Shown piece after piece: positions 903 to 46,481 of a DNA stretch of 64,000 nucleotides; positions within the stretch are counted from its first letter, which is position 1, and each line of letters opens with the position of its first letter. A program made the translations under genes and the position numbers. The notes beneath the pieces are model-generated. The model saw nothing but the letters and a program-made list of their open reading frames with translations. It was not told the DNA's origin and made no database searches. The stretch covers positions 82,501-146,500 of the forward strand of contig NC_087385.1 of NCBI RefSeq assembly GCF_963675165.1, given 5' to 3'. Origin of the DNA: Halichondria panicea. Lineage: Eukaryota > Porifera > Demospongiae > Suberitida > Halichondriidae.

Positions 903-3900
903 ATGATGGCAGGTGAGTGTGTGTGTGTGTGCCCCTCAGAGCTAGTACTGTGTAGGAGCCTTTAAATAAGTTATAAAGGTCATGATTTTATACACACACA
1001 ATTCATATTCACAGAATTGAGGTTGGACTTGTCAAAAATTGACAGTGATTTGGAAGCACAATATGGTGAGTGAGTGTGTGGATGCCCGGCTGGTTTAGGT
1101 GTGGTCACTAGGGCTCTGACTAATGGCGTGGCTACATGTTCATGATGGGGGAGGGGAGCAGTGCACAGTGTACATGTGTACTAGTAATGAAAGTTTGTGT
1201 TAGTCTTGTGTTAGCAGTAGATGCCTTCCTGTATCAATCATATCTGTGTTTGCCATTGGAAGAACTATTATTCATCACATTCACCTTTGTGTGTAGATGT
1301 ATATGTAGTGCGAATACTTAGTTGTTGATTATGTCATTGTGTGGGTGTGAGTGTGTGGGTATGTGGGTGTGTGAGGACCCACCCACTACACTATGCAATG
1401 GTCGGAGGTGGCATGTTTGCTAGCACTTGTTGTGATTGTGATTACATATCTTGTTAGATGTTATTGGCATGCCCACTTATATAGGACGTAGCCATCACCT
1501 TGGCAACTAGACTATTAGCGGCCAATGTATTGGCTGTACATGTGATGGCTGTACATGTGATGGCCATTGGCACAGACACTGTGTGTGGCATCCCTCACAC
1601 CACCCACACCACACACACACGCCCACACAGATGACCAGGACGATATACCCGATGATGACGAGGAGTGTGTGGAAGACCTGGACCCGCTAGTGGACAACCT
1701 CTCTCCTGATGACCTCCTCTCTCCTCTAGAGAAACTTCAGAAGTACTTCCAAAGCGATGATGTTGGGGAAAGGTTGGTCATCTGCCCTCTACTGTTATAG
1801 AGCTTGAGTACCGTATTATTACTAATTAACAAAGAGTAAACCTGACAATCTAACCTTTGCGTTCTAGCAAGGATCGTGATGTCATACAAATACTGGTATT
1901 TGCGAAATTTCATTATAATTATGTTTGATGCATTGCCTCCATGCAGGGACATAGCTCTGAGGATCATACCTGATGCAGTCCAGTGCGTGAGCAGCTTTGC
2001 AGAGTTTGATCTCCTATTAGACGTTGTGTTTGCCCTGGCCTCCGACTATGGTAGGAATATAATCCCATTATATAATCTAGTCTCAGTATTGTATTCCTTC
2101 ATTGCCTCATTGTGTTCAGAGCTTGCACATGACAATACTTTAATAGGAAGTATCCCCCCTCAGGCAATACACAGCATATAGCTATAAGCTAACTTACTTA
2201 GCTATAAATTATCGGTATAAAAGTTATTCTATCTCCCTAGGGGGCCCTCCCACCACCAGTGCAATTAAATGTACATAATTATTATTTACATAAGTATTCG
2301 CACAGTATAGCAGAGGTTTGCTCTCCCCTCCCTGTACACAGAGCCTTGTATTCGCACAGTATAGCAGAGGTTTGCTCTCCCCTCCCTGTACACAGAGCCT
2401 TGTATTCGTACAGTATAGCAGAGGTTTGCTCTCCCCTCCCTGTACACAGAGCCTTGTATTCGTACAGTATAGCAGAGGTTTGCTCTCCCCTCCCTGTACA
2501 CAGAGCCTTGTATTCGTACAGTATAGCAGAGGTTTGCTCTCCCCTCCCTGTACACAGAGCCTTGTATTCGTACAGTATAGCAGAGGTTTGTTCTCCCCTC
2601 CCTGTACACAGAGCCTTGTATTCGTACAGTATAGCAGAGGTTTGCTCTCCCCTCCCTGTACACAGAGCCTTGTATTCGTACAGTATAGCAGAGGTTTGCT
2701 CTCCCCTCCCTGTACACAGAGCCTTGTATTCGCACAGTATAGCAGAGGTTTGCTCTCCCCTCCCTGTACACAGAGCCTTGTATTCGCACAGTATAGCAGA
2801 GGTTTGCTCTCCCCTCCCTGTACACAGAGCCTTGTATTCGCACAGTATAGCAGAGGTTTGCTCTCCCCTCCCTGTACACAGAGCCTTGTATTCGCACAGT
2901 ATAGCAGAGGTTTGCTCTCCCCTCCCTGTACACAGAGCCTTGTATTCGCACAGTATAGCAGAGGTTTGCTCTCCCCTCCCTGTACACAGAGCCTTGTATT
3001 CGTACAGTATAGCAGAGGTTTGTTCTCCCCTCCCTGTACACAGAGCCTTGTATTCGTACAGTATAGCAGAGGTTTGCTCTCCCCTCCCTGTACACAGAGC
3101 CTTGTATTCGTACAGTATAGCACAGGTTTGTTCTCCCCTCCCTGTACACAGAGCCTTGTATTCGTATCAACGTGCTGGCCAACCTCTCACCTTTGCTGGA
3201 GCGCAACGCTGCCCTACGAGGTGATGGGGCTGAGTTTGCCCCAGAGAATGAGGAGAGATTGTTTGGGATACCAGTCAAGATGCTCGTGGACATCAACCTG
3301 CAGGTACAGTACCTGTAGCTCACGGGGTATTAGAATAACAGCTCCTCTGATTAGTGTTCTTGATGTGTGTTCTAGTTACCACAAGTCATAGTTCAATCGA
3401 TTCTTATATTATTAATTTTAATTTCAAGAGATTGTGTTTTTGTAAACTTTATCTCTAATGACAGGGTTTTCCCCTTCTCAGGTACGCAGGGCTAGCCAGA
3501 ACTTTGTAGTGAGTCTACTGGAGGACGAGAGAGGCAACAAAGGTAAAGTAGAGGAAGGTTTCTGTACACAAAACCTTTCATTGCTGTTAGAGGGCTTCAT
3601 TACTCGTGTGTGTGTGTGTGTGTGTGTGTAGGTAATCTGCTGAGTCAGCTGTGCCCGATGATCAAGCGCTGCCTTGGCAAGGACGAGAACTATGACCTCA
3701 GAATGGACACTGTCCTGGTGAGTTAGACCCCCCCCACCAAGGTCACATGATTATGTTGAGCTTGATTTCAATGATCCATTGTACACGTACACGTACTTGT
3801 ATAGTGTGGGCTACTCACTTGCAGTACATGTACATGTATAGTGTGTGCTGTGTAGTTTCAATTTGCACTGGCCAATTTCATTGTTTTTCTAAAGAGTTCT

Positions 3901-6900
3901 CTTTCATGTTGTACCAAATTGGGCAGATATTATAATTATATTTGATGAATGAGCCATTTGAACTGACTTGGCGTTGTTTATATTGGCGTCTCAGGCGTGG
4001 CTACTACAGCAATGACATTGTGTTGCGCTAATTTGCCAGGATCTTCAGTAAAATTCGCCAAATTGCCAAATTTCCCAGTTATACGATGCTCCTTGCCCCC
4101 TGTATAGATGCTTGGGCGTATTGCTGGTATCCTTGGTCGGGAGTTGATTGTGGAGCACTTTGTTCCCCTCCTTCCCTCTCTGGCACTGGACACCATGTTC
4201 CATGTACGCAAGGCCTACGTCATGAGTTGCAGGGAGCTGTGTCCTGTACTGGGAGAGGACGATGCAGAGGAACATCTGGTGAGATTATCTATAGTCACTG
4301 TGGTAGCTTTCTTTGAGAGCCTGTAGTTTGTGTTTAGAATGTCCTATTTCATGATTAAACCAAAGATGTACTATTTTGAGATTGCGGGATGTAGTTGAAC
4401 ATAATTATTAACAACCATAACTTTAGTATCGTTGATCCAATGTAAACAATTTCAGGATTTTCTGAAAGCTTAGAAAGAGACTTACTTTTTAAATAATCTA
4501 AAATTTCGTTGGGGCCATAATTTGTCATTTTTCCGCCTTGGACCATGGGCTATTATTATTCATGGTATGGACAATAATAATTGGCAAATACTTTTGTCTC
4601 TCAAATATAAATTTTGATGACATCATTTGAAAGGTCTCTGTCTAAGCTTTCAGAAAATCAGAAAAACATTGAAATTGGATCCACGGAATGCAAGTTATGA
4701 CAGATGAAAGAACCACTACTATAATATATCTATATAGCCTTGTGTTTTCATCTAGAATTCAGCTGTTTTGGCAGCTATAATCAGATTAACAACTCATCTT
4801 CTTGTTCTTTATTGCCCAGCTGCCGCTATTCTTTAAGCTGTGTAAGGACGAGGTGTGGGGAGTGCGTAAGGCGTGTGCCGATGTGTTCACTGATGTGTCT
4901 GCCTCGTGTAACCTTGGTACCCGTCACGACAAGCTCACTCCAGTCTATCTCAGCCTACTGCACGATGACTCAAGATGGGTAAGCCCCTGTAGTTAATAGG
5001 GCTAAAGGTAAAGCCCCCTCGTTAGCAGTTATCTAGATTTCACATGCATATAGCCATGCAGTAGATGGTTGTGGGCTAGGTTAAGATCATCTCTATACAA
5101 TGTATATCTCCACAGACTGTACTGATCTTATCACTATGCCCCTCAGGTCCGCAAGGCTGCATTTCAGTCGCTGGGTGCTTTTATCTCCACCTTCTATGTT
5201 CCCGGGACTTCCCCTGACCTAGACGATAGCCTACCCCCTCTCAGTGACTCGTTCCTAGACACTGAACAACTATCCACTAGTAGTACAGGGCAATCGACCT
5301 CTGACCCCTCCACCATCACCAGTACCGGGGGATCGACCTCTGACCCCACCACCAGTACCGAGCAATCGACTTCTGACTCCTCGACCACAAGCAGTATCGG
5401 GAAATCAACCTCTGACCCCTCCACTAGCAGCAGTACTGAGCAATCAACCTCTGACCCCACCACCAGTACTGGGCAATCGACCTCTGACCCCTCCATAGAG
5501 ACACGACACACAGAGTCCACACCGCCAGTGGTAGACGTTAATTCAAATTCCGAGGAATCAAAAGAGGTTGTGTTTGTTCCTAGTGAGATAGCGCGCACTA
5601 GTAGCCAAGAATCTCTCGAGAAGTCACTGCAAGACATGACAGTAGAGGATTTAGAACTGCTTGAAAGTACCCCCCTCGATAAAGGTCACGACCTTTGTGC
5701 TGACGAGAGCACCCCCCTCGATAAAGGTCATGATCTCTGTGCTGAGGAAAGCGAGGAGAACGACATTCTAGACAGTGCCATAAAGAAGATAGGTGTACAG
5801 TCACCTTTGACCCTTGACGAGCCGCTAGTCATACACCCACCACCAATCAAATCAGTCAAACTAGACGGAGAAGAGGAGGCAGCAAATAATAAAACTGACA
5901 ACTCCAAGAGAGATGATATGCACACACAATCTGACAATAATGGAAACAGAGGTCCAGCAGGGCAGACCCCCCGCCCTGATTACACCAGACCCCCCGGGGA
6001 GATATCCAAACACAGCCGATTGGCTGAGCTACTACAAGACGACAGTGCTCGGATACGAAGCAGCTCTGAAGGGTCGTCATTCAAGTCGTACTTTGACCCC
6101 GTGTTACGCGGTGAGATGGGTAGTACCTCTAAGAAGAGGAGGTGGTCCCTCGACAAGAACAACACCACCTCTCAGGTATAGCAACAGCACCACCTCTCAG
6201 GTATAGCTAGAACAACACCACCTCTCAGGTATAGCTAGAACAACACCACCTCTCAGGTATAGCTAGAACAACACCACCTCTCAGGTATAGCTAGAACAAC
6301 ACTACCTCTCAGGTATAGCTAGAACAACACCACCTCTCAGGCATAGCTAGAACAACACCACCTCTCAGGTATAGCTAGAACAACACCACGTCCAGGTATA
6401 GCTAGAACAACACCACCTCTCAGGCATAGCTAGAACAACACCACCTCTCAGGTATAGCTAGAACAACACCACGTCCAGGTATAGCTAGAACAACACCACC
6501 TCTCAGGCATAGCTAGAACAACACCACCTCTCAGGCATAGCTAGAACAACACCACCTCTCAGGCATAGCTAGAACAACACCACCTCTCAGGTAGAGCTAG
6601 AACAACACCACCTCTCAGGTATAGCTAGAACAACACCACCTCTCAGGTATAGCTAGAACAACACCACCTCTCAGGTATAGCTAGAACAACACCACCTCTC
6701 AGGTATAGCTATGAATAGCTGTGTGTGTGTAACATGTTCACTAGCGGCTTAATTGCAACATGAGTATTCTTATTGCTTAGTGATGTGATACAGCATTATA
6801 GGACCTTACGTCTATTTATATAATGTGTGCAATCTCCACTTGTTACTTACCTGTGTACTGCTGTAGTTTCTTCATGCAGTGTATGGCTACTTCAGTGTGC

Positions 6901-9900
6901 CTTTAGTTCACTAGGGACACCAATTGTGCATTTTACAATCTCGTTCTGTTGCAGTTTAGTTGTCTAATAATTATAATCGTTGCTCTGTTTTTATACGTCC
7001 CCTCCGTCCCTCCGTCCCTTAGGTTCGTGTGTTCATTCACTCTGTGTCTGGGAAGGTGATGGAACAGGATATGTCTGTAGTTGACCACGCCCCCTTATCA
7101 CCAGACACACCCACTGACCTCACACACAACGCCACGACAACCAACTCTGTTGCCATGGATATCACACTGGAGGGTATGGACAGCTTGCCCTCTGACCTCA
7201 ACATGTTCTCAGACCTCGGTCAGGTCAGTGCAGCTAGCTACCATATAGCGGGTGTCAAGGTATATAGTGGCACCTCTAACATCTAACTCTCATGGTTGCA
7301 TGTACAGTCCACTGTAGACAGACATGTTCATTGCATGTACAGTCCACTGTAGACAGACATGTTCATTGCATGTACAGTCCACTGTAGACAGACATGTTCA
7401 TTGCATGTACAGTCCACTGTAGACAGACATGTTCATTGCATGTACAGTCCACTGTAGACAGACATGTTCATTGCATGTACAGTCCACTGTAGACAGACAT
7501 GTTCATTGCAGGTACAGTCCACTGTAGACAGACATGTTCATTGCATGTACAGTCCACTGTAGACAGACATGTTCATTGCAGGTACAGTCCACTGTAGACA
7601 GACATGTTCATTGCATGTACAGTCCACTGTAGACAGACATGTTCATTGCATGTACAGTCCACTGTAGACAGACATGTTCATTGCATGTACAGTCCACTGT
7701 AGACAGACATGTTCATTGCATGTACAGTGGTGGTCTGCTGGGACTGGTGTTATTTGGCTTGTCACCACCTAGTGCATGTAATTTAATACTCTTTTTTGGC
7801 TTTCAATGTGTTAGCAACCTTTGTCCTGTTAAAACATCTTACACTTACAACATAGCCTTGTTGTCATGAATACCACTCCTTGTGCGCTATATTGCAGTAA
7901 CCATTTTGATATTGGAATTGTCATTAGTTGTGTAACTGAATTAGCATTTGACATTCTAACTGACAATGTATGACAGGAGGTGGTCCATTATTGTGCCTCA
8001 CAGGAGGTGGTCCATTATTGTGCCTCACAGGAGGTGGTCCATTATTGTGCCTCACAGGATGTGGTCCATTATTGTGCCTCACAGGAGGTGGTCCATTATT
8101 GTGCCTCACAGGAGGTGGTCCATTATTGTGCCTCACAGGAGGTGGTCCATTATTGTGCCTCACAGGAGGTGGTCCATTATTGTGCCTCACAGGAGGTGGT
8201 CCATTATTGTGCCTCACAGGAGGTGGTCCATTATTGTGCCTCACAGGATGTATGGTCCATTATTGTGCCTCACAGGAGGTGGTCCATTATTGTGCCTCAC
8301 AGGAGGTGGTCCATTATTGTGCCTCACAGGAGGTGGTCCATTATTGTGCCTCACAGGAGGTGGTCCATTATTGTGCCTCACAGGAGGTGGTCCATTATTG
8401 TGCCTCACAGGAGGTGGTCCATTATTGTGCCTCACAGGAGGTGGTCCATTATTGTGCCTCACAGGAGGTGGTCCATTATTGTGCCTCACAGGAGGTGGTC
8501 CATTATTGTGCCTCACAGGATGTATGGTCCATTATTGTGCCTCACAGGAGGTGGTCCCTGATGAGCTGATGGAGAGCTACCTGAGCATGACAGAGCAGGT
8601 GAAGGCCCAGGTGGTGGACACTGACCTACCCTACTACTGTGCCTACTCTCTGCCTGGTGTGGCCCTCACTCTAGGTCATGAGTACTGGGACATTGTCAGA
8701 CCAACCTTCTCACTGCTGGCCTCTGACATGCAGGTACACACACACACACCACATGCTGCTAATCATCAGCCACAACTATACTGTATTTGGCATGGTAATA
8801 AAAATACTTTAGGCCCAAATTTATTGCAAAGGTAATAATCCGAAAATTCCCAAGACTTGTAATATCTACTTTGTTGCCTGGAAAGCACTAAATCAACTAT
8901 TGTAGGCCCTCCTATCCTTTATGCAGTCTTACAAGCAATGTCATCTGTGTTTGGAATTGAATTAGGCCACCATACACCAGTCAGGCAATCTGTTGCCTAA
9001 AGTTGCCTGGTGTATGGTGGCCTTTAAGAGACTATATGCATAGCCCCACCCACTTGTTAGACCCACTCTCCAATTTATGTAACTTCTGTTTCAGTGGGCC
9101 ATAGTTGCGTGTGTGTTACTACTGGGGCTTCGGAGCGGGAGGTAGGTGGTCGGGAGGTAGGTGATCGGGAGGTAGGTGGTCAGGGACTCCGGCGTGCGCA
9201 CATTTATCTTTCGTTTCTGAAGTTCTCAGTATAAACACTGTAGTGGCTGAGACCTTCAGTTCACTGGCCTCATGAGACCTTCATTTCACTTTCCTCATGA
9301 GACCTTCAGTTCACTGGCTGAGACCTTCAGTCTGCACCGCGCTGATCACTGGCTGAGACTTCATGAAGTTGGCTGGGACTCCAGCCTAGGTCGGGACGCC
9401 GGCTGAACAACTTTTTTTTTACTTAGTTTTCATGATCATAGATAAAGGAAAGGAATTGGAAACAGAAGTCAAACGTCTAACTTAATTTGGACTCTGTGTT
9501 GCCAGCCCAAACAAGTTTTATGGCTGTTAAAAGCAAATCTAGACCGTTATAACCCTTTGATACATTTACAAAGTCTTGTTGTCCCTATTCTATCTCTAGA
9601 ACTGTCTGACTAAGTAGTGTACTGTGTCACATAATCATGGTCTCAAGTATTGTATGGAACTGCAAGCTAGGCAGTAGAATTCTTAAAGGCCACCATACAC
9701 CAGGCAACAAGTTGCATACAACAGATTGTAAGCAATTTTTACATACACGAGACAATTCATTGCTTACAACCATTGTAGGCAATGAATTGTCTCGTGCATG
9801 GTGGCCTTAACAAAAAGCGTTGTAAAAAAAAACAATCAGTGCAACAGTTGCTACCTGAAGTTAATCACTACCTGTCCCTTCCTTCCCTCTAGTGGCGCAT

Positions 9901-10777
9901 CCGTCGAGTGCTGTCCTTCTGTCTGCACGAGCTGGCCAAGGTGGTGGGAGAGGAGCGGATGGTGGGAGACATACTGCCAGTGTTTGAGGAATACTGCACC
10001 AAGGACATTGATGATGTGAAGATAGGAGCTCTCTCCCATCTGGCCGAGTTCTTCGAGGTGTGTGCATGATGTTGGGTAAAGAGCAGTAGACGAGCAAACC
10101 AATTATTGGTGACTGGTACCTGGTGAAGGGTCATTATATTAAAAAGCTCAAAAAGCTTTGCTAAGATCTTTGTGAATATTTCTTTTTCGCTGGTCATGTA
10201 GTAGTAGTTATATGTATTCTCCTCTGACGTAGTTGCTGCCCACTGGTCTGCGTAGCCGTCACCTCCCAGCAGTGTTGCACGGTCTGCAAGATATGGAGAA
10301 TGAAAAGAACTGGCGATATAGGAACCTCCTAGCAGAGTGAGCCCCCTCAATCCTTACCCCCTCAATTGTTACCCCCCCCCCCCATCTTAATCCCTACCCC
10401 TCAATCCTTAACCCCCTGTAGACAACTGGTGCTGCTCTGTGACCTGTTTGACTGTGACTATCTGGAACGCCACGTTTATCCTGTTGCATTAGCACTGGCC
10501 GAGGACAAGGTCGCAGAGGTCAGAGCCACGGCAACACTTGTGGTGAGTTGATGAGGATGAGACCTGTGGATTATGACCATGCTGGTTGATGTACCCACCA
10601 CCCACCCACACATACATGTGGATTATGACCATGCTGGTTGATGTACCCACCACCCACACACACATACATGTGGATTATGACCATGCTGGTTGATGTACCC
10701 ACCACCCACACATACATGTCATTGTGTACTTATGTTCGCTTACAAGGCCTTTAAATCTGTTACAAGCCCAATAGCAT

Positions 10778-10853
<76 letters not shown>

Positions 10854-13800
10854 CTGGGTGTGATCCTCCAGAAGCTGTCACAGATGGATCTAAACAAGTG
10901 CAGGGCTATTCTCAATCAGCTCAAGTCTTATGGCTCCAATGATAAGTGGCTCTACAGGTTAATGTAAGTCACTTGACCCTTAGTGAGGTAACCTAACACT
11001 GTAGGCATTGCTTGGATACAGTCTATAATCATGTGTGGGACAGATCATGAAATGTGTGCAGTGTTGATCACCTTTTCCTGTGTTGTATTTGTTGGTTAAT
11101 CTACTGTGTTCTGTGTTATCACGGGTCTGGCTGTTGGTGTGTGGGTCCCCTAGCCCTGTGTTATCACTGGTCTGGCTGTTGGTGTGTGGGTCCCCTAGTC
11201 CTGTGATAACAGTTTGTGTTGGACTGTATTCTTACCCTCCTACCAGCCAGCGACCCAGTCCTGCACACACACCACATGCTACCAGCCAGCGACCCAGTCC
11301 TGCACACACACCACATGCTACCAGCCAGCGACCCAGTCCTGCACACACACCACATGCTACCAGCAAGCGACCCAGTCCTGCACACACACCACATGCTACC
11401 AGCCAGCGACCCAGTCCTGCACACACACCACATGCAGTGTACAAGTGTACAGTAGTTACACGTAGCTTCATATCATAGCAGGAAGTGTTACAAGTATACA
11501 ATTCCCATGCATTACTTTAGGTAGCGTATTTCAACCCAACACCCCCCCCCCCCCAAACACAGGTATGTGAAACAGTGTGAGACGTTCCTATTGGACGGAC
11601 GGATATCATGTGAGCTGTTTGCCAGCGAGTGTCTCCCCATTCTCCTCCAGCTAGCCAGGGACAAAGTTCCCAATGTCAGAATAGCAGTGGCTAGGATGAT
11701 CAAGGAGTCAGTGCTCAAAATAGGTGAGACCTCGTTACCCTGTGTGTGTGTGAGCCCCTGCCCTGATTACCTCGTTACCCTGTGTGTGTGTGAGCCCCTG
11801 CCCTGATTACCTCGTTACCCTGTGTGTGTGTGAGCCCCTGCCCTGATTACCTCGTTACCTGTGTGTGTGTGAGCCCCTGCCCTGATTACCTTGTTACCCT
11901 CTGTGTGTGTGAGCCCCTGCCCTGATTACCTCGTTACCTGTGTGTGTGAGCCCCTGCCCTGATTACCTCGTTACCCTGTGTGTGTGTGAGCTCCTGCCCT
12001 GATTACCTCGTTACCTGTGTGTGTGTGAGCCCCTGCCCTGATTACCTCGTTACCCTGTGTGTGTGTGAGCCCCTGCCCTGATTACCTCGTTACCCTGTGT
12101 GTGTGTGAGCTCCTGCCCTGATTACCTTGTTACCCTCTGTGTGTGTGAGCCCCTGCCCTGATTACCTTGTTACCCTCTGTCCGTATAACTGGAAAGTTGG
12201 GCAAATTAGCCATTTGAAACGACTTGGGGTCTCAGTCGTGGCTACTACAATGACGTTGTGTCCACTGGAAAACCTTATTTTAAATTTGGCCATCAGTAAA
12301 ATTCGCCAAATCACCAAATTAAAACACCATGCAGCTATGCCCTGCTCTGGTTACCTCGTTAACTGTGTGCTGTATGTGTGTACAGTGACCTACAAGGCTG
12401 GGTACTTAGCAAATGATTACAATAACAGATTGCTCATAATTTTAAATAATTACAAAACGAATTGCTTCATTCACTTTAAGTTATGAACTCTTTAACCCCA
12501 ACTCAAGCTTTTGTCTGTCCCTGACAACCACCTCCCCCTCATTGTCCCTGTAGATTACTTCCAGACGGAGAACAAAGAGACCTTCTCCCTGGAGGAGCTG
12601 CAGATCACACTGGAGTGTCTCCAACACGACCAGGACAGGGACGTCAAGTTCTTTGCTGGGGGAGAGGTCAGCGACACCAGGAGGTACGCTGTGTGTGTGG
12701 TGTGGGTGTGTGGGGGGCATTGCGTGACACCAGGAGGTACGCTGTGTGTGTGGGTGTGTGAGTGTGGTGTGGGTGTGTGGGGGGCATTGCATGACACCAG
12801 GAGGTATACAGTGTACATGAGTAACCTTCAATGCCTTTGTGTACAGTATTATTTGCACCCACACCCCACACACACTCCACACATCACTCACACACCACCC
12901 ACACACAGGCTGATGATGCTCCCTGTGCAGTGGTATGCTCAGAGGCAGCGTTCTGAGTCCCACAACAGCAACGACCAATATCAGGACGCACTGGAGGACC
13001 AATCAGATAACAAGCCACGCCCACTTTCCCTCACAATGGCCGGGGTTCTCGCTATGTCTTTTCAGAATCATAAAAAGTCACCAACTACAAACTATGGAAG
13101 TTTGGATGCTCCCAAAATTCAAGACACCACCGTCAAATCTGAAGAAAGGTCTCAGGATACTACTGTAGAATCTCAGGATACTGCTATGGAAACTCAGGAT
13201 ACTATGACAGAGCCCGATACTACGACAGAGCACGATACTACTATCGAACCCACTGTAGAGCCTCAGGATACTACTATGGAATCTCAGGATACTACTGTGG
13301 AGCCTCAGGATACTACTGTGGAATCTCAGGATACTACTGTGGAGCCTCAGGATACTACTGTGGAGCCTCAGGATACTACTGTGGAATCTCAGGATACTAC
13401 TGTGAAATCTCAGGATACTACTGTGGAGCCTCAGGATACTACTGTTGAAATCACTGTGGATTGTAGAGACAATTTCGAAGCTGTCGCTAATAGTAACTAT
13501 GCAACAACAATGGATGGGACACAACTCGTGGACAACAATAATTTAGCAACAAATCAAAATACTAGTCTGGATAATAGTGAAGGTAGGTTTGTCTATTCTG
13601 CCCACCAGTGAGGGGACTGTGGTGAGGGGTTGAATAGGCTGCCCACCAGTAAGGGGACTGTGGTGAGGGGTTGAATAGGCTGCCCACCAGTAAGGGGACT
13701 GTGGTGAGGGGTTGAATAGGCTGCCCACCAGTGAGGGGCCGGTGGTGGGGGGTTGAATAGACTGCCCACCAGTAAGGGGACTGTGGTGGGGGGTTAAAAG

Positions 13801-32765: not shown

Positions 32766-33791
32766 TTATTGGGAATGTTTGTGGCTAAATTGTTCCAGTC
32801 CTGTCTTGAATCTGTCCATGGTGAGGCCGCCGGCTTGATCTTCAATATAGAAGCATGTCACACCTACAGAGAAGGCACAGAGAATGTCTTACATACACTA
32901 GAGCCTATAATTATAGCATGCAGAATCAGCCATGGCTTCACAGAACAATGTATGTGTACCGCTCAACAACAAAGGCCAATACTTGTTGGTTCCACTGACT
33001 ATACTCGCCTAGTGTTGTGATGTCACTAATATTGTCTTCCATGTTATCAAAGAAGAGCATGTCCTTGTACTCTACACCAGACGCACTCTGTATACTGTAT
33101 GAGAGGCTAGTCATGTGACTATCACATGTAAGGGAAGGACTTACTTTTTAAAGTGCTTAAACTTTTTCGTTGGAAATATTTGAAAGTGTGAGAAAAATTT
33201 ATCAATTTTTAACACAGCCATTAGTTGCCGTGATGTTTGGGGGTCTGTGGTACTGTGTGGGGGGTAAGATTAGACGAATAATCAGAAGTGAGTATTACCT
33301 CGAGGCAGCTGCTAATTTGATCCCCTTCTCTTGTAGAGCGGTCATGATGGTCCTCACATCAGGGAACAGTGCCAACTTGTGTCCATGCCAATCCACTGCA
33401 CCACCTTTCCTGAGAGGGGGGGAAGGGGCATTCAGTACATGCAGTGCATGGGTGAACAGATATTGAGTATATAGCTTAGCCAGAGCTAAAAAAAATCACA
33501 TGGAGAAATAATCAAGTACTGATCCATGGAAGGCTTGAGGAGATGGTTCTAAGTGTGTGTTAGTGTTTTGACTTACTTGTCTGATCGGAATGGTTGAATG
33601 GTCATGTCCACATGTAGCTCCCACACTGTGTAGTCTGTGTGAGGAGGTGGACATGTCAATTCAGGTCAGTTACAACAATTTGGGGTTAGCACTCACCCAA
33701 ATTAAGTACCACCATCTTTGGCAGTACCTTCATAGACTGCATGAACTCAGACAGACCATCTCCCTCGCACTCAGCTCTAGTGGAGGACATC
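32766..33791 (-). CDS. MDP1: Magnesium-dependent phosphatase 1-like HAD protein, altered active site
   Basis: Six exons in transcript order are 33698-33791, 33577-33634, 33299-33409, 33145-33252, 33009-33094 and 32766-32863. They give 184 residues; human MDP1 is about 176. Family signatures are LNLDYTVW, FPDVRTIMTALQEKGIKLAAASR, a helical segment ending FFSHFQIFPTKKFKHF, DMLFFDNMEDNISD and VTCFYIEDQAGG. MDP1 is a small HAD phosphatase with motif DxDxT, whose first Asp is the nucleophile. Here that position is Asn (AAT at 33702-33704, in NLDYT). The motif IV pair FFDD reads FFDN. The motif II Ser and motif III Lys appear kept. The intron after 33009 starts with GC (AG|GCGAGT), a GC-AG intron. 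The gene is divergent from DHODH and tail-to-tail with DYNC1LI. Confidence 0.88.
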
Positions 33792-34034
33792 TCCAGCTCC
33801 AGGGACGGACGGACAGGGGAGTCTAGTCAGTGTACACGTAAGTAAGTAGGTACACGAGTGCAGTGTACAGCATAATGCATGCCAGAGTAGGCATGCACAG
33901 GTGGATGGTAACTAATATTGTGGCATGGTCTCTCTAGCCGGCCTGTGCATCAAAGAGGGGTGGAGCTCGCGGTGCACGCTAATTAGAACAACCCACATGG
34001 ACCAGAGAGCTAGGGTGAGAGTGAGAGTGAGAGA
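33792..34034. promoter_or_regulatory. Putative bidirectional promoter, MDP1/DHODH
   Basis: Only 243 bp separate the two divergent start codons. A GAGAGTGAGAGTGAGAG run lies directly before the DHODH ATG. No TATA box was recognised. Confidence 0.4.
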
Positions 34035-36440
34035 ATGCCTTCACTGGGAGGTCTCCTGAGGGCGGGTAGTGTGGCTGTGCTGAGTATGAGTGGTGGACTC
34101 TGCTATGGCTACTTCACCTTCCATCAGTGGATGTTTGATACCGTGTTTATGCCAATAACAAGGCAACTGGACCCTGAGACAGCACACTTGTCTGCAGTGG
34201 CTCTGGCTGCAAGAGGATGGCTCCCTCGAGACAAGAGCAAGGATCCTGACATTCTGGTGAACCTGCAGTATAGCGCTGGTGTCTATTAATATAGAGAAAC
34301 TGATCTTGTGGGTACTACCGTATAGCGGGTTATTTTCGAGCACTAAATTTTCAGATTTATACCCAAACAAAACATTTCTATTTTTGAGAACAGAGGTTCA
34401 AATGACCACACCCCTACAGTAGAGTTTCAATAAACTGTATTTCTGAGTCAATCCTTGAATAACCCACTATACGCTATCATAGATGGCTTGTAGTGTATTG
34501 ACTTGCCCCCCCCCCCCCCTCCAGCGTACTAGTGTGTGGGGTCTGTCTCTCTCCAACCCCCTCGGGCTGGCAGCTGGGTTTGACAAACATGCTGAGGGCT
34601 ACCAGGCTCTATTAGAGATGGGGTTTGGGCTGGTTGAGGTGGGGAGTGTGACCCCTCATCCCCAGGCTGGGAACAATAGGCCCAGAGTATTCAGGCTGGA
34701 GGAGGACAGAGCTGTCATCAACAGGTCAGCTAGCTGTGGTGGTGTGTGTACTGTTGTGGGGCTTAGTTCCAGGTCAGCTAGCTGTGGTGGTGTCTGTAGT
34801 GCTGTGGGGCTTAGTTCCAGGTCAGCTAGCTGTGGTGGTGTGTGTAGTGTTGTGGGGCTTAGTTCCATAGATTATAGGTTGCAAGTAAGTATGAGGTACA
34901 CCTTACCTGAATTAATATTTGATGTACAAACGGTTATCTGCGTTTGTGTGTGTGCATTTCTTATTATCAGTAGCAGAATTTAATTTTCAATTCAAGATTT
35001 TCTCTCTTTGCAGATATGGATTCAACAGTCACGGCCATGCTGTGGTCAAGGATCGACTGAGAGGCTGGAAGCAAGCCAAAGAGAGGCCCTCCCTGCAACA
35101 CAAGCTGTTGGGGGTCAACCTTGGTAAGAACAAGAGCAGCCCTTCACCAGAGCAGGACTATGTGAGAGGAGTGAGGGAACTGGGGGCATCTGCTGACTAT
35201 GTGGTGATCAATGTGTCCTCTCCCAACACTCCCGGGCTAAGAGACATGCAAGGCAGGCAGGCACTAGAGACACTACTGGATAAGGTGATCACTCCACTGC
35301 TGTATTATAGCTAGATTTTATCTCTTTTCCCCACCTTTCAGTCAGTGAAGTCATTGAGTACATAAGTAACATTCTTACTTTACTGCATAATATTATTTGG
35401 ATCTGAACTACTTTTAAATACAATTTCTATACTTTTCTTGCTTGTCTGTAGCTCCTAGGGCATAGTCTTGTTATGTTTATACCTGTGTCTTACCTGTTGC
35501 ATATTCCATATATAATTATATGACGTGCAGGTGCTTGCAGAGAGGGACAGTCTCCCTCACCCACTGCCCCTGCTCGTTAAGATTGCACCTGACCTCAGTC
35601 AAGAGGACAAACGAGACATTGCCATCGTGGTAACAAGAGAGAAGGTCAGTGCAGACTTGATTGTAGAGCTGAAATGACAATTTTTTGTATACATGTAGGG
35701 TGGTGTTGATGGGTTGATTGTCTCCAATACCACAGTATCGCGACCTTTGACCCTTACTAGCAGCTACCAGGGAGAGGGGGGTGGTCTCAGTGGAGAGCCT
35801 CTCAAGGAACTGGCCACACAGACCATCAGGGACATGTACTCTCTCACTCAAGGTGAGGAGGGCACCAATGGAAAGCTTCCCACACCCGTATAGTACTAGG
35901 TACTTGAATTTTGTGGAATGGCCTCTAAAAAATGTTGTTGAATACATTTTGCGCTATTCATAGCTAAGCATTTTGTGGCCCTACATTTCGTGGAGGATTG
36001 CTAACCCATGGAAATTAAGTACCTCGAAAATGTTTCAGTATACGGTAGATAGTTGTTTGTAGTTGGATAGAACTAGTAAAGAGCACATGATTAATATGGT
36101 GTAAACCATGCATCGCCATTTTACAGTTTCTAAACAATAATTATATACATTTTGTGTTTGGCTGCTTTTTGCCGTAGGTGAGGCTGTTCTAATGTGTACA
36201 CCATCTCTTCGTGCAGGGGAAATCCCCATCATTGGTGTTGGGGGTGTGTCTAGTGGTCAAGATGCCTACAACAAGATAGTGGCTGGTGCTAGTCTGGTGC
36301 AGCTCTACACGTCACTGTCCTACGAGGGTCCCCCTGTCATTGGGAGGGTTAAGAGAGAACTGGCGTCCATTCTCAAGGAGAAGGGATTCACCAGCGTCAC
36401 ACAAGCAGTCGGATGTGAACACACAAACACAATCAAATGA
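34035..36440 (+). CDS. DHODH: Dihydroorotate dehydrogenase (quinone), mitochondrial
   Basis: This enzyme oxidises dihydroorotate to orotate with ubiquinone in de novo pyrimidine synthesis, at the mitochondrial inner membrane. Six exons (34035-34256, 34525-34724, 35014-35284, 35531-35644, 35699-35852, 36217-36440) give 394 residues; human DHODH has 395. A basic/hydrophobic N-terminus with one membrane segment (about residues 8-28) fits a mitochondrial class 2 enzyme. Motifs are [49 protein letters not shown] (with the class 2 catalytic Ser), [25 protein letters not shown] and [15 protein letters not shown], followed by the FMN phosphate loop. The donor of exon 2 is triplicated by a 48-bp repeat. 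A broken copy of exon 6 lies at 41356-41626. Confidence 0.95.
34316..34464. mobile_element. MITE-like element in intron 1 of DHODH
   Basis: CCGTATAGCGGGTTATTTTCG on the left pairs with GAATAACCCACTATACGCTA on the right, giving imperfect terminal inverted repeats of about 20 bp. Similar ends (CCGTAGAGCGGGTTATTTTTA) occur near 57040 in TOP3B, supporting a dispersed family. Confidence 0.6.
34723..34868 (+). repeat. 48-bp repeat, three copies, carrying the exon 2 donor of DHODH
   Basis: Exon 2 ends ...CATCAACAG at 34724, followed by GTCAGCTAGCTGTGGTGGTG. The same AG|GTCAGCTAGC recurs at about 34771 and 34819, each after GGGGCTTAGTTCC. The unit includes only the last AG of the exon, but every copy is a donor-like AG|GTCAGC. 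Confidence 0.9.
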
Positions 36441-36728
36441 TAGCGTATTCTACTATGTCCTTATTTGTGTTCTGTACCACAGCATTAGTGAGCTTCAGTT
36501 TCGCTCATCGCTATTAAAAATTATATATCTCTCAGCTGTTAGACGTAGGTATGGCCAGCTACCCTCCTATCTTCCAACCATAGATTGGCCACGGGTAAGC
36601 TTGAAAATTGGGGTTTCATCAATAATTATTGTGGTTGGCATAATTAAAACGCAACACATTCCATCACCAAATTCATTGACATAAGGCTCCCTCGGGGTCT
36701 GGCCACGGATTTCACTACAAGAGGTTAG

Positions 36729-37648
36729 ATGGTGGATGAAGTACTGTTGAGAGCTTATGATGAGGTACTGCTGTGGGAGGATTGCAGGGACAAGGCCAGT
36801 CGTCTCCTCTCCTCTCTGGCTAATCTAGTGGAGCAGTTGAACACAGTACACTCCTGTATGAGTCAGCCTGGCAAGCTGGGAGTGTTGTGTCAGCATTCCC
36901 AGGCTCTGTACTGTCTGCAAGGCAAACTGGTGGAGGCCATGGAGAGAGCACTTGTCTCTGTGCAGGCTGAGAGGTGGGTGTGTTTGTCCGTGTGTGTGTG
37001 TGTGTGTGTGTGGGAGGTCATTGCTCTCAATGGTAGTGTTTGTTACACAGATGCAAGATGCTTGAGATCGTGTGTTTACTGAAGAAATGCTCAAGGGAAG
37101 CAGAAACAAAGCTGAAGCACATAACAGGTTAGCACTATTAATTTGTATTTGCGACCTAAATTATCAGCTCCATAATTGACCCAAAATAGTACCCGTATGT
37201 TGTAGCTTTTCTATTTCTCAAAGCATTGTTTAGTCGACTTATAGATCTCAATAATTAGTACATTAATACAGTGTATGGTTGAGTTGCCCTGTCTGATGCA
37301 TGCAGGGAGATGCAGTGTTGAGAGTGTGTGCTGCAGGACTAGTCAGACCTTCTCCCCTGCTGAGCAATGTGGTTGGTTGAGACTCATCCATGCTGCCTAC
37401 ACTGCTGACACTGAGGACAAGGCTCTGGCTGTGGATACTGTACAGTACACTGTCCATGGGGTGGAGGAGGCCCTCACTGTGTGGGCAAGAGATCCTGTGG
37501 AGAGCAGTGGTGAGTACTGCAGTACACGAGTTTGGATAGTTTATTATCAATTAATTTTACAGAGGCAGTGAATTTGCTGAGGTACTCCATTGGTGCAAGG
37601 GAACAGTTTCGACCAGATTTAGCTGCTAAAACTCAAAGAACAATATAG
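36729..37648 (+). CDS. AIRIM: AIRIM (C1orf109-like) protein, copy 1
   Basis: Human AIRIM (C1orf109) works with the AFG2 AAA-ATPases and CINP in late ribosome maturation. Exons 36729-36973, 37051-37127, 37306-37509 and 37563-37648 give 203 residues, the length of the human protein. The recognisable part is the N-terminal helix, LLSSLANLVEQLNTV, close to the family's LLSSLSNLAEQL. Helical segments then follow in the same order, with conserved spacing to a C-terminal Trp-containing helix. The assignment rests on this local match and the length, so it is less certain than the other orthologues. It starts 288 bp after DHODH. A second complete copy lies at 41959-42871. Confidence 0.72.
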
Positions 37649-37850
37649 ACAAATTCATATAATTTTTTATATTATAATTATTATAATATAATTATATATT
37701 TTTTGTATTTGTATTTGCATCTTTTGTTGTGCCAAAAAACCCTTGACATAATTATGCATGAGCTATACAAGATACGCCCACTTTCTTAGCTAGCCTGGCT
37801 ACCAGTCTAGGGCTGAGACAACAAACCACAACAACACCCATCTTATAACA

Positions 37851-39861
37851 ATGGCGGATGTTCCTGCAGCGTTTCGAGATCAACTCAAAGCTTTCGAACT
37901 TGATGTTGTCCATTTCACTGGTGAGGAACTAGGAAAAGGCTCTTATGGAAGTGTAGAAATTGTAGAAGTGACCGGAGAACGCTGTGCAGCAAAAATTCTC
38001 CATGAAGCTTTAGTGGAATCTAACTCAAGGTTGCCCAACCAGAGGGCTAGAGGCCGTGGATACCAGCCAAGATCTCTCATAGAAGCCTTCACGACTGAAT
38101 GTACGCTAATGAGTGAAGTTCGCCATCCTAACATTGTGAGGTTTCTGGGTATTTGCTATCATAGGCCGGGGGAAAGCATTCCAGTCATTGTTATGGAGCT
38201 GCTCAAAACCTGCTTACACGAGTTACTTGAGTCCGAGACGAGAAAAAGCCAAGTTATACCGCTTTCAGTAAAGCTGTGTATCTTGTTGGATGTCTCTAAA
38301 GGCTTGGTACATTTGCATAGCCTGGATATTGTTCATCGTGATCTGACCGCTCGCAATGTTTTGTTGAGTCAATCTCTCACTGCTAAAATAGCTGATCTGG
38401 GTATGGCTCGTTTGATTGAGTTGAAACCTGGCCGACAAGAAGCGACGATGACAAAAGGTCCTGGAAATGCCAACTACATGCCACCAGAGGCCAGAGATGG
38501 TGGTCCAATGACAGCCCAGTATGGCAAACCAATCGACTGCTTCTCCATGGGCCACCTCATTCTGTTCACTACCACACAGGAATTTCCTGAGCCACTGTAT
38601 CCAACTTACTTCGACAGTCAATCAAAGACAACCAAAGTTCGTACAGAGATTGAGCGACGTGAAGATAGTTTCCAAGCTGCCGTCACAGAAGTTGGGCAGG
38701 ATCATCCGCTGCTGCAGGTGGCCTCACAATGCTTACAGAACAACCCTCAGGTTAGGCCAATAGTTTCTGAGATAATGATGCAAATTCAAGAAGAAGCTGT
38801 AGGTGAACTACGACAGAAAAATTTAAAACTTGAGTCAGATTTGAATGAACATCAACGTCAATCTCAACAAGTTATCGATGAACTTACACGCGATGTTGAG
38901 GATCTCCAGAGCAAACACGTTGAGGCAGTCAAGGAAAAGGAAGCTCTGTTGAAGAAACTGGAGCAACAACAAGAGGTAAGATGACATTCATGTTTATACC
39001 GGGGGTGAGGTATACTGTAAAGCGGAAATGTATTATAGTGTTGTATTTGTGTCATGCATGCTGATCAATTGTAAATTGTTGCAGGTTCACAAGCCCAAAC
39101 CAGTCATACGGAATGAAGTTAGCTACCCACCTAAGACGCCATTTTCACAAGAACAAACACCTCCTAATACTGCCATTGCCAACACTGTGCCTTATGATGC
39201 AGTGGGTGAAATATCCGAAGAACATATTGTTGATCCTGAAGCCAATAAAGAAGAACACAGAGGTGATACAAGAGATGATAATTTGGTGACACCAGAATGG
39301 TTGAACGAAATTGCTTCTGAAGATCGTTATGGCTATGATAACTTAAGGCAATCTAAGGGCTTCAAAAATTACGTCAAAGCAGCCCCTGACTTGAAGCAGA
39401 AGACGGCGGTATCTGAGACCCTTGGCCACCAACAAACCAATGAACCATCACCTAACCTACCTAACCTGGACACTCCCGAACCTGATACTACTCGAGTACA
39501 AGCTTACGGCTGGCAACACAATGATTTTGAAAATAGACCAGCTGGACATAAACCAATAGCTAAGCGTCGAAATAAACTTGGTGTAGAAAAATCTGCCACT
39601 GATTCACATGTACCTACACTCACTATCGAGACTCCCTGCAAACCTTACACAAGCCCACTGAGCAGCTTGGAACATCAATCAGTGTCATCGAGTGATTCTG
39701 AAGACTTACCTAACCCACCTATCCTGGACACTCAAGAGCCTGATACTACTCGAGTACAATCAGTGTCATCGAGTGATTCTGAAGACTTACCTAACCCACC
39801 TATCCTGGACACTCAAGAGCCTGATACTACTCGAGTACTTTATAGAGATACAGCGTTTTGA
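37851..39861 (+). CDS. Protein kinase K1 (tyrosine-kinase-like loop, coiled coil)
   Basis: Exons 37851-38975 and 39085-39861 give 633 residues. The kinase domain (about 22-300) has the loop GKGSYGSV (28-35), Lys48 in CAAK, Glu83 in the C helix, HRDLTARN (162-169), DLG (182-184) in place of DFG, and YMPPEA. Arg within HRDLTARN is typical of tyrosine kinases. The P+1 region (GNANYMPPEA) lacks the usual tyrosine-kinase Trp, so specificity is uncertain. A coiled coil covers about residues 300-375. Exon 2 encodes a disordered tail with a duplicated segment (SVSSSDSEDLPNPPILDTQE). Unlike K2-K4 it has no C-terminal Cys finger and ends VLYRDTAF, so the tail may be truncated. AGATACGCCCACTTTCT upstream is shared with K2 and K3. 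Confidence 0.85.
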
Positions 39862-41355
39862 AGAACACTAGTCAGGGAAAAATTCGTACAAAAATTTACC
39901 GCATTTTAATGTACTTGGGCGGGACTTATGAAATTTGTTGGTAAGGTTAGGGTATTGTGATCACTCATGAATATTCATGAGTTTAATTCTGTCAGCTTTT
40001 TCTCTTTTGCACCGGGTCCAACATCTCTAGCTCAGCATGCCCACGCTCATTTTTCACCCTTCTACCTTTTTTTATTTTTTATAATTATAATAGGAAAAAG
40101 AGCATGTATACATGTACATAATAATTTATTGGGAACAGTTACAGTTAATTAAATTTGAATTCTACCCTCCTAACTCTACGTCTATTTCTTTCTTTATTCC
40201 TCCAATTAATACCGTATTTTATCTCATTGAACGATTATACAGTATTTTATCTTATTTAACGATGTGATAAAGAACAGAAAAGGAGTAGACTCGCAAGCCA
40301 CTCCCTTTTCTCTGATTGGACGGGGGCGGGAGAAAAGGGACTGGTGACTCTGGGCTACATTTTGTGTCTCTACCAGAATTTGGGTAGAGATTATTCATTG
40401 ATTTTTCCACGTGATCCAAAAATTGCGTGAGGTTAAGTAGAATTGCGTAGCCTGCAAAAGTGATCGCGGGCTTCTTAGCTACAGTTTAAGAATGGATGCT
40501 AGTGCTAGAAAAGAGAAGATGATGGAGTAATAACATCATCAGGCATTCAGCTAGGATATAGTCATCTAAGACACCAGCAGAGATTAGCTTGTTTTAGTTT
40601 TACGTGATGAGAACTGGCAGCCGAAAGTCATTGGTTACCTAAAGCTTTTAATAACCTGTACAATACAAGACAGATAATGGCAGAGGGCAGCAGTTGAATT
40701 GAGAGTAGTCAGACTTGTACAAGCTGTCTTAAACCGCTGCCACTCCTCGGTTCAAAGAAGGACTGCCAAGATTTCTACGTTCATCAGCTGTTCCATGCTA
40801 ATCCACAAGTTGTGGCACAACAGACACTGGTACAAGGATCTATAATATCAAAAGGCTGGCTAGATAGATCTGTATACTTGTCTTCTCTGAGCTGTGTGTC
40901 TTTAGCTTTTGACGCATCAGAATAAATTGGATAATTTGCACGTGACATTAATATTTAATAGCATTCCTGATTTACACAAAATGTAGCCCAGAGTCACCAG
41001 TCCCTTTTCTCTCGCCCCCGTCCAATCAGAGAAAAGGGAGTGGCTTGCGAGGCTAGAAAAGGAGAGGCACAGCCAGCCCCGGATATTTTCTATTTGAACG
41101 CTAGGTCAATAAGCGAAAACTTGGCCTGGGAGCTATGGCGCAATATTTAGTGCCAAAATTAGAGTATATACGTATTTGTATCTGGGCCAGGGTGAACTGG
41201 GGTAGACACTAGATGATAGTGATACACTTTTTAGTGTAGACTATCACTTGGGGTACTCTTTATCACTTTAGGTACACAAATAATTCTTTTGAGGGTACCT
41301 GCTCTTCCATATTATAATGACCTGAAGAGTACCCTCAAATATATTATTTTCCGTA
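39862..41355. other. Intergenic region, K1 to duplicated DHODH exon
   Basis: It holds the TIR element at 40286-41054 and AT-rich sequence with TAATTATAAT-type runs. No coding sequence was supported. Confidence 0.7.
40286..41054. mobile_element. Non-autonomous DNA transposon with about 80-bp terminal inverted repeats
   Basis: The left end (AGACTCGCAAGCCACTCCCT through GGGCTACATTTTGTG, to 40366) is the near-perfect inverted match of the right end (CACAAAATGTAGCCC from 40975 through AGTGGCTTGCGAGGCT). AGAAAAGGAG flanks both sides (40276-40285 and 41055-41064), a plausible 9-10-bp target-site duplication. Long inverted ends with a 9-11-bp duplication fit a Mutator-like element. The interior has no transposase frame. 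Confidence 0.8.
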
Positions 41356-41626
41356 GGTGAGGATGTTCTAATGTGCTGTGTACACCATCTCTTCGTGCAG
41401 GGGAAATCCCCATCATTGGTGTTGGGGGTGTGTCCAGTGGTCAAGATGCCTATGACAAGATATAGCGGCTGGTGCTAGTCTGGTGCAGCTCTACACATCA
41501 CTGTCCTACGAGGGTCCCCCTGTCATTAGGAGGGTTAAGAGAGAACTGGCGTCCATTCTCAAGGAGAAGGGATTCACCAGCGTCACACAAGCAGTCGGAT
41601 GTGAACACACAAACACAATCAAATGA
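41356..41626 (+). pseudogene. DHODH last-exon pseudogene fragment
   Basis: The sequence matches intron 5 and exon 6 of DHODH (about 36176-36440), including the acceptor CTCTTCGTGCAG. A length change near 41461 (ACAAGATATAGCGGCTGG where the gene has ACAAGATAGTGGCTGG) breaks the frame and creates TAG. No other DHODH exon is nearby. It marks the left edge of a segmental duplication that also carries AIRIM copy 2. Confidence 0.92.
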
Positions 41627-41958
41627 TAGCTAGTTAAAGTCTACTATATCCTTAATATTTCATAAGTTGTGTCTGCACCACAGCATCAGTGAGCTACAGT
41701 TCCGCTCATCGCTATATATTATTTCGTTAAAATTATATATCTCTCAGCTGTTAGACGTAGGTATAGCTAGCTCCCTCCTATCTTCCACCCATAGATTGGC
41801 CATGGATAAGCTCAAAAATTGAGGTTTCAATCTATCTTTCTTTTTCGGTTTTCAATGTTGTGGCTGGCATAGTTAAAACACAACACATTCCCATCACCAA
41901 AATTAATTCATAGTTCAATAAGGCTCACTCGAGGTCTGGCCGCGGATTCGAGAGCTAG

Positions 41959-42871
41959 ATGGATATGGATGAAGTACTGTTGAGAGCTTATGAGGAGGTA
42001 CTGCTGTGGGAGGGTTGCAGGGACAAGGCCAGTCGTCTCCTCTCCTCTCTGGCTAATCTAGTGGAGCAGTTGAACACAGTACAGTCCTGTATGAGTCAGC
42101 CTGACAAGCTGGGAGTGTTGTGTCAGCATTCCCAGGCTCTGTACTGCCTGCAAGGCAAACTGGTGGAGGCCATGGAGAGAGCACTTGTCTCTGTGCAGGC
42201 TGAGAGGTAGGTGTGTTTGTCCGTATGTGCGTGTGTATGTGTGTGTGTGTGTGGGAGGTCATTGCTCTCAATGGTGGTGTTTGTTACACAGATGCAAGAT
42301 GCTTGAGATTGTGTGTTTACTGAAGAAATGCTCAAGGGAAGCAGAAACAAAGCTGAAGCACATAACGGGTCAGCAGTATTAATTTTATATTTGCGACCTA
42401 AATTATCAGCTCCATAATTGATCCAGATCCAAAATAGTACCTATGTTGTAGCTTTTCTATTTCTCAAAGCATTGTTTAGTCGACTTATAGATCTCTGTTG
42501 TATGGTTGAGTTGCCCTGTCTGATGCATGCAGGGAGATGCAGTGTTGAGAGTGTGTGCTGCAGGACTAGTCAGACCTTCTCCCCAGTTGAGCAATGTGGT
42601 TGGTTGAGACTCATCCATGCTGCCTACACTGCTGACACTGAGGACAAGGATCTGGCTCTGGAGGTTGTACAGTACACTGTCCAGGGGGTGGAGGAGGCCA
42701 TCACTGTGTGGGCAAGAGATCCTGTGGAGAGCAGTGGTGAGTTAACATTTCTCAGTAATAATTACATGTATAATATGACAATTTCTTGCAGAGGCAGTGA
42801 ATTTGCTGAGGTACTCTGTTCATGCAAGGGAGAATTTATTACTAGCGTCTAAAACTCAAAGAACAATTTAA
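41959..42871 (+). CDS. AIRIM: AIRIM (C1orf109-like) protein, copy 2
   Basis: Exons 41959-42206, 42292-42368, 42533-42736 and 42792-42871 give 202 residues with the same structure as copy 1. The frame is intact and splice sites are kept. Differences include MDMDEV at the start, scattered substitutions, and a shorter, changed C-terminus (VHARENLLLASKTQRTI). An intact frame beside a broken DHODH fragment suggests selection, or a recent duplication. Confidence 0.7.
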
Positions 42872-43018
42872 TGCTCCGTTCCCACTCATATTTCCCTGTT
42901 TAGAATATGTATGGTACAATACAATGTATATACTACTAACATTTTCACCTGGTACTTGGTGCTGTATGAGGTTATAATTTATAGCGGATTTGTTTCTAAT
43001 GTAATGCTGTGCATGGAC

Positions 43019-43073
43019 TAGCCTCGAGACCACGCCGATTAATCAGCCTGGATTCGAGGCTATGCATGGACTA
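43019..43073. mobile_element. Miniature hairpin insertion (about 42 bp) with 11-bp flanking duplication
   Basis: TAGCCTCGA...TCGAGGCTA forms a stem around AATC-rich sequence. TGCATGGACTA occurs immediately before (43010-43020) and after (43063-43073), like a target-site duplication. Related hairpins lie at 46859-46890 and, degenerate, at about 46651-46690. Confidence 0.65.
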
Positions 43074-43486
43074 CCCTCGATTCCAGGCGCGGTGCAGCCA
43101 TAATTATCTATGGTGCAGCTAAAGTAATTAGCCTCTGATTACTCTCAGCAAGAGTCTCCTAATGAACTCTTGCTCTCAGCAAAAACATACGGCGGGGCGT
43201 GGGCTTATTATAAATTTTTTGCGGGGGGGGGGGCGTGAAAGCTCTCCATCTAGCTCGGGGCTAAGAAAAATTACAGGAAGTGGTGATAATTATGTTTAAT
43301 ACTGTAGCACAATTAACAGTTAAAAGTTGAGGATGGGGGCAGGGGGGAACATGCCCCTCTTGAGGGGATATGATTATCCACCCACGCACCGCCCATGTCG
43401 TATGTTTACCGGTACGCATGCGCGTGTCTCAACCCCTACAAGATACGCCCATTATTTTCCCATGTGTCAAAAGAGATCTTAATTAA

Positions 43487-46301: not shown

Positions 46302-46481
46302 CTTTTTTTGCTCATGTGATTCATTCGTTTTGAAGTGATAAATGTCATATAATAATTATTCATGTGATCAGTGTTATTAATTTTATATACATAGTAGCAA
46401 TTAATTGATGCTCCGATGGATAGTTAACTTATTAGCAACTAAAATTTACTGCCATGTTGCATGATTAATTGCTCTCCACAG

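Follow-up and report, generated by a model that had tools for sequence, protein, structure and literature searches.

Minisatellites that multiply splice sites are known from other genomes, and that of human IFI6 (6-16) is said, after Turri et al. 1995, to supply multiple splice donors. Here we describe three arrays of this kind in a PPP4R1-like gene of the sponge Halichondria panicea. The gene lies in a window of 64,000 nucleotides (the whole stretch of DNA that was analysed), which spans 82.5-146.5 kb of the 7.05-Mb contig NC_087385.1 in a genome of 131.5 Mb. All three arrays share the trait by which we group them with IFI6, namely a unit that crosses an exon edge and repeats the splice site found there. 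The case joins the known splice-site-repeating arrays and is notable for three such arrays in one gene and for their high copy number.

In the IFI6 array, two downstream repeat units act as donors and the resulting variants encode different isoforms (PMC4526556). Like IFI6, the sponge gene has a minisatellite at the end of an exon, here exon 10, whose units repeat the donor; unlike IFI6, every downstream donor copy closes the reading frame, and two acceptor arrays are present besides. Tandem repeats on exon-intron boundaries have also been reported to alter splicing in human segmental duplications, with 27 intron modifications counted after curation (PMC2812944). Those repeats, with units averaging 30 bp, resemble ours in being minisatellites on exon-intron boundaries; they vary from one paralogue to another, have 4 copies on average and are backed by RNA, whereas ours sit in one gene, reach 16-22 copies and are seen in genome sequence. 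In potato RdRp, a new intron came about when a segment spanning an intron-exon boundary was duplicated in tandem (PMC4974935), and there too the repeated segment covers the acceptor and the start of the exon; the potato case involves two copies and a new intron, whereas the sponge arrays have 16-22 copies and give no sign of a new intron. The same paper describes intron gain of the Rogers type, through duplication of AGGT; our units too contain AGGT, but part of each intron here, including a splice site, lies outside the array. In C. elegans, a minisatellite has been linked with alternatively spliced regions (PMC4039745).

Three minisatellites span exon-intron junctions

A sequence-only reading of this DNA had proposed that three arrays in the PPP4R1-like gene straddle splice junctions, and Tandem Repeats Finder combined with our curated gene model does put the junctions inside the arrays (Table 1). 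All three fit the definition of a minisatellite, with head-to-tail units of 27-54 bp, 95-98% match and 16.2-21.5 copies. Counted as splice sites, with the real one included, the copies number 16 at exon 5, 20 at exon 10 (15 GT and 5 GC) and 22 at exon 12, all as in one assembly. The reading had counted 16, about 19 and about 21, so that its figure for exon 5 stands and the other two are slightly raised; its estimate of 10-18 exon bases per unit suits exons 5 and 12 (15 and 10) and falls short for exon 10 (20). When a piece of each array was searched against the 131 Mb genome, no other place was found, the counts in this search being lower bounds. Because no other genomic place was found for these pieces, the three arrays most likely arose in place.

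The curated exons join into a single open frame of 1050 amino acids without a stop. In Pfam this protein matches HEAT repeats at E 1.2e-23 and, at E 7.8e-10, a HEAT domain like that of PPP2R1A; among solved structures, almost every match is a PP2A scaffold subunit (best E 1.1e-30), and none of the 21 matches is a PPP4R1 chain. The structure matches fall at 204-324 and 824-1040 of the 1050 residues with repeats in between, a layout of N half, low-complexity middle and C half. HEAT-repeat halves flanking a low-complexity middle are the layout of human PPP4R1, and the name comes from the sequence-only reading, from this layout and from short stretches around exons 5 and 12; no search brought up a PPP4R1 record. 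No second genome copy was found for a 192-residue piece of the protein. Exon edges were set with the help of reading frame, splice-site consensus and similarity of the encoded protein, exon 10 showing no such similarity. Short stretches around exons 5 and 12 presumably resemble human PPP4R1: YEPCIR of exon 5 would correspond to SEPTVR, and EVVPDELMESYLSMTE of exon 12 to DVVPQALLDQYLSMTD. The gene region also has in-frame coding repeats at 5282-5495 and 13252-13449, whose 39-bp and 21-bp units encode low-complexity stretches (STSDPST-like and TTVEPQD-like).

Table 1. Window coordinates of the PPP4R1-like gene, its junction-spanning arrays and other arrays discussed in the text
Feature	Position	Strand	Remarks
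PPP4R1-like gene	903..12690	+	18 exons curated by hand; further 3' exon to about 13611 likely
54-bp minisatellite, exon 5 acceptor	2294..3166	+	Tandem Repeats Finder, 16.2 copies, 98% match; last 15 bases exonic
Exon 5	3152..3303	+	Proper acceptor 3151|3152; frame and splice consensus
28-bp minisatellite, exon 10 donor	6156..6711	+	Tandem Repeats Finder, 20.0 copies, 95% match; first 20 bases exonic
Exon 10	5147..6175	+	Proper donor 6175|6176; frame; low-complexity region, edge without similarity support
27-bp minisatellite, exon 12 acceptor	7973..8557	+	Tandem Repeats Finder, 21.5 copies, 97% match; last 10 bases exonic; two copies of 29 bp
Exon 12	8548..8733	+	Proper acceptor 8547|8548; frame
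35-bp minisatellite x 12.4	7296..7728	+	Tandem Repeats Finder; wholly within intron 11, off junctions
40-bp minisatellite x 11.4	11729..12180	+	Tandem Repeats Finder; starts 5 nt past exon 17 donor, donor excluded
48-bp array x 3.0, dihydroorotate dehydrogenase gene donor	34722..34867	+	Opens with last 3 exon bases; CAG|GTCAGC three times

The reading had also drawn a parallel with intron gain, in which sequence containing AGGT is duplicated in tandem. AGGT is present in all three units, and in none of the three introns do both splice sites come from the duplication, as gain by that route would need. The partner splice site lies outside the array in all three, and sequence outside the arrays is kept over 243 nt in intron 4 (2051-2293), 311 nt in intron 10 (6712-7022) and 244 nt in intron 11 (7729-7972). 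Because the partner site and these 243-311 nt lie beyond the repeats, the arrays most likely enlarged pre-existing introns and did not create them, and intron gain by this route is not supported.

Only the exon-proximal copy keeps the frame open

We scored splice sites with a position-weight model trained on this genome, in which GC donors were left unscored. The real sites of the gene score 3.6-8.0 (17 donors) and 3.2-7.3 (17 acceptors). All 16 acceptor copies at exon 5 score 6.1, and 21 of the 22 at exon 12 score 4.5, the first copy having 1.1; at exon 10, 14 donor copies score 4.3, one scores 3.2 and the five GC copies have no score. Most array copies have the same score as the real site that they adjoin, and both the scores and the copy counts agree with the earlier statement that dozens of near-identical rival sites stand beside each real one. 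Since the copies mostly score alike, predicted strength by itself cannot single out the right copy, and the choice would have to rest on position, on exon context or on removal of faulty messages.

The frame computed for the non-proximal copies ends in a premature stop in 55 of 55 cases (15/15 at exon 5, 19/19 at exon 10 and 21/21 at exon 12). As the sequence-only reading had suggested, only the exon-proximal site is open, in 1 of 16, 1 of 20 and 1 of 22 copies respectively. These 55 closed copies are worth far fewer than 55 independent facts because their causes are few: those of exon 5 are all closed by one TAG in the 54-bp unit, those downstream of exon 10 by one in-frame TAG, that within the first GTATAG of the 28-bp repeat, and those upstream of exon 12 by the frame shift from two 29-bp copies, the 27-bp unit being otherwise open.

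Branch-site-like motifs in intron 11 were considered as a further guide to site choice. TTGAC, CTAAC and CTGAC lie at -26, -18 and -14 from the first acceptor copy, and just two such motifs, both CTCAC, lie ahead of the proper exon 12 acceptor, at -33 and -4. Across 428 predicted introns, branch-site-like motifs were not enriched ahead of acceptors (YTRAY 0.276, against 0.286 in control stretches); because of this the positions in intron 11 say little, and the argument was dropped.

Three junction arrays are not clearly beyond chance

The occurrence of three junction arrays in one gene had been thought unexpected by chance. Our placement tests do not bear this out: in a gene so rich in repeats and introns, three is about what chance allows at matched length. 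With each array collapsed to between one and two units, the curated gene measures 8585 bp and has 34 junctions, and its 15 arrays with a period of at least 12 divide into 3 on junctions, 10 intronic and 2 exonic. Random placement of the 15 at matched length gives 2.25 on junctions if at least 4 bases are required on each side and 2.59 if at least 1 is required, against the 3 observed (P 0.40 and 0.50). Restricting the set to arrays of 2.8 copies or more (11, with 3 on junctions) gives P 0.26-0.33, and the 7 with at least 4.8 copies, again with 3 on junctions, give P 0.10-0.14. Confining the null to non-exonic placement raises every P. We judge matched length to be the fair null, since the observed intervals were classed at that length, and report it alongside a one-unit null.

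The sequence-only reading had also proposed a scan for arrays that overlap exon edges, and we ran one on the window and on 250 kb elsewhere; the wider sample consisted of these 250 kb and 20 kb adjoining the window, with junctions called by a home-made gene finder. In the window, where the curated model replaced predictions in the PPP4R1 region, 7 of 46 arrays lie on junctions against 7.49 expected (P 0.65), and the sets of longer arrays give 5 of 24 against 4.36 (P 0.44) and 4 of 13 against 2.31 (P 0.19); likely false junction arrays at 14411, 14944 and 48125 were retained in these counts and in those over all sampled blocks, the latter also including one at 9136. Elsewhere, 6 of 75 arrays are on junctions against 9.37 expected, and 3 of 22 against 2.21 among those with at least 2.8 copies. 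Over all sampled blocks, one of which contains a stretch read as N, so that the test was redone on the window by itself, 10 of the 50 arrays with 2.8 or more copies lie on junctions, where matched-length placement predicts 7.23 (P 0.18). Arrays of 1.8-2.8 copies are, if anything, under-represented at junctions, with 6 of 78 there and 10.6 expected. The scan shows no clear excess at matched length and, in some tests, a nominal one under the one-unit null.

Several results weigh against a chance origin or make the counts less certain, and deserve to be set out together. When 8 bases are required on each side, the matched-length P falls to 0.25, 0.17 and 0.06 for the 15, 11 and 7 arrays. The one-unit null at 4 bases gives 0.18, 0.09 and 0.04 for the same sets, and its lowest value is 0.016 (8 bases, 7 arrays). 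Over all sampled blocks, with their uncurated gene calls, this null predicts 4.77 junction arrays among the 50 that have 2.8 copies or more, and 10 were seen (P 0.011); among the 26 with 4.8 or more it predicts 2.37, and 6 were seen (P 0.02). The gene finder recovered 29 of the 34 curated junctions and predicted 13 extra, which makes the window-wide counts noisy. Finally, the three junction arrays have the top three copy numbers of the 15, an arrangement expected once in 455 by chance and noticed post hoc. Because the one-unit null gives a nominal excess (P 0.01-0.04), there may be a moderate, about twofold enrichment at junctions.

Splice-motif arrays across the genome

A genome-wide comparison of splice motifs with their reversed forms bears on the junction-linked mechanism that the sequence-only reading had raised. 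AGGTRAGT, the donor motif, was counted 13,655 times in the genome, and the reversed motif 12,473 times; of 22 AGGTRAGT occurrences in the collapsed sample, 14 are predicted donors. Three tandem copies with 15-45-base gaps are found in 18 matches at 10 loci that look unrelated by eye; the reversed motif gives 37 matches, also at 10 loci, five of which share one sequence by eye, leaving 6 families. The ratio of donor to reversed arrays does not differ from 1, whether taken by loci (P 1.0) or by families (1.5, P 0.46). An acceptor-like motif, TTTNCAGG, recurs in tandem at 8 loci, grouped by eye into about 4 families, and these give 16 matches against 94 for its reversed form, which is a weak control, 15 of the 17 inspected matches being one satellite. 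These patterns demand a perfect motif in three successive copies and would miss the PPP4R1 arrays. Small as the numbers are, splice-motif arrays show no clear genome-wide excess over reversed motifs, and the counts weigh against a strong junction-linked mechanism; a mild one may exist.

Four of the ten donor-motif loci read CAG-AGGTRAGT, so that an acceptor-like CAG abuts the donor and each unit, with GT first and AG last, resembles a minute intron. Separately, a satellite with a unit like GGACATTTATAAATACCCAT was seen on contigs C5, C7, C10 and C17 in opposite-strand pairs, as if at the ends of mobile elements; the members lie about 4-5 kb apart in five pairs, and some 10 and 21 kb apart in two others, the pairing outside C5 and part of C7 being judged from the spacing.

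A minisatellite hotspot around the gene

Arrays with at least 4.8 copies number 13 in positions 1-32000 of the window and none in 32001-64000, against 10 in the 250 kb elsewhere. The array at 56322-56808 was kept as 127 bp x 3.8 and appears in another row as 33 bp x 15.1, with which the second half would have one. Under a stricter filter, the window has 10 arrays and the 250 kb elsewhere 6. Such arrays are thus roughly five- to tenfold denser around the gene than in the other sampled regions, which makes this a minisatellite hotspot. The hotspot lies near a contig end, one end having been sampled, and array density changes abruptly along the window; in humans, repeat-number variants cluster in subtelomeres (PMC7608644).

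Origin and possible role of the arrays

We consider it likely that these are ordinary minisatellites, formed by local tandem duplication in place within a hotspot and tolerated at junctions as one intact junction remains. To the observed arrays, their copy numbers in the assembly, the frame outcomes, the one place found in the genome and the chance rate, this explanation adds a duplication mechanism, selective tolerance, choice of the proximal copy and decay of other messages. Replication slippage or unequal exchange in an array-rich stretch would produce local tandem duplications, and with roughly random start points in an intron-rich gene some first duplications would cross a junction. A duplication of this sort would do less harm than one inside a conserved exon, and would be tolerated because one intact exon edge always stays beside the exon; the array could then expand on the intron side. 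The normal protein would need the exon-proximal copy, and nonsense-mediated decay would presumably remove transcripts from other copies, which carry premature stops.

Junctions might instead promote the birth or growth of arrays, for example through co-transcriptional structures at splice sites, in which case junction arrays should be commoner or longer than others. That the top three copy numbers of the 15 belong to junction arrays, that the one-unit null reaches P 0.01-0.04 for the longer ones, that a dihydroorotate dehydrogenase gene also has an array at a donor, and that 10 donor-motif loci face 6 reversed families (a non-significant ratio) all point this way. On the other hand, the matched-length nulls are without clear excess, the donor loci equal the control loci in number and are fewer by matches, the acceptor-motif matches fall below the reversed ones (though one satellite seems to dominate that control), and arrays of 1.8-2.8 copies are if anything scarcer at junctions. 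We think this explanation unlikely; the top copy numbers and the dihydroorotate dehydrogenase array keep the junction-linked idea alive at low probability. It is distinctly improbable that the arrays regulate the gene, with part of the transcripts using non-proximal copies and being degraded, so that copy number would tune PPP4R1 output. The premature stops behind all 55 non-proximal copies, most of which score as the real site does, would suit such a role, as would the three branch-site-like motifs ahead of the first intron 11 copy compared with the two CTCAC ahead of the proper acceptor; against this, stops are expected anyway from one TAG at exon 5, one TAG at exon 10 and two 29-bp units at exon 12, and motifs of this type are not enriched ahead of the acceptors of predicted introns. 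The two ideas might be combined, in that junction arrays would grow more readily and their copy number would set productive PPP4R1 splicing, a repeat-length dial built three times, and this we regard as very unlikely.

Misplaced exon edges, with exon 12 beginning at the first acceptor copy and the array partly or wholly translated, would accord with the 27-bp unit being nine open codons (EVVHYCASQ) in the exon 12 frame. We find this extremely improbable, given that the two 29-bp copies shift the frame and all 21 upstream acceptor copies end in a stop; similarity to human PPP4R1 presumably begins at the proximal copy. The probability that the arrays are new introns forming through AGGT tandem duplication is close to negligible: every unit does contain AGGT, and the potato duplication across an intron-exon boundary is a precedent (PMC4974935), but each array leaves the other splice site and 243-311 nt of intron outside itself, and the AGGT donor of the exon 12 unit reads GTGGTC, far from the GTRAGT consensus.

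Whatever their origin, the arrays amount to a natural experiment, in which 16, 20 and 22 rival sites of mostly identical score differ chiefly in position. The usage of individual copies here would show how far position and exon context outweigh site strength in splice choice. If copy number truly affects output, minisatellite length would be tied to gene dosage.

Neighbouring genes

The 35-bp and 40-bp minisatellites of the PPP4R1-like gene and the array in the dihydroorotate dehydrogenase gene are given in Table 1. The predicted protein of the latter gene matches Pfam DHO_dh (E 1.9e-93). At window 33741-41626, its last residues recur near-identically at the end of the next predicted gene, which suggests that the last dihydroorotate dehydrogenase exon was locally duplicated as a segment. 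Two adjoining predicted genes at window 36729-52606 resemble related kinase-like proteins by eye, and the second of these predictions contains repeated kinase-like units with coding repeats of 177-183 bp.

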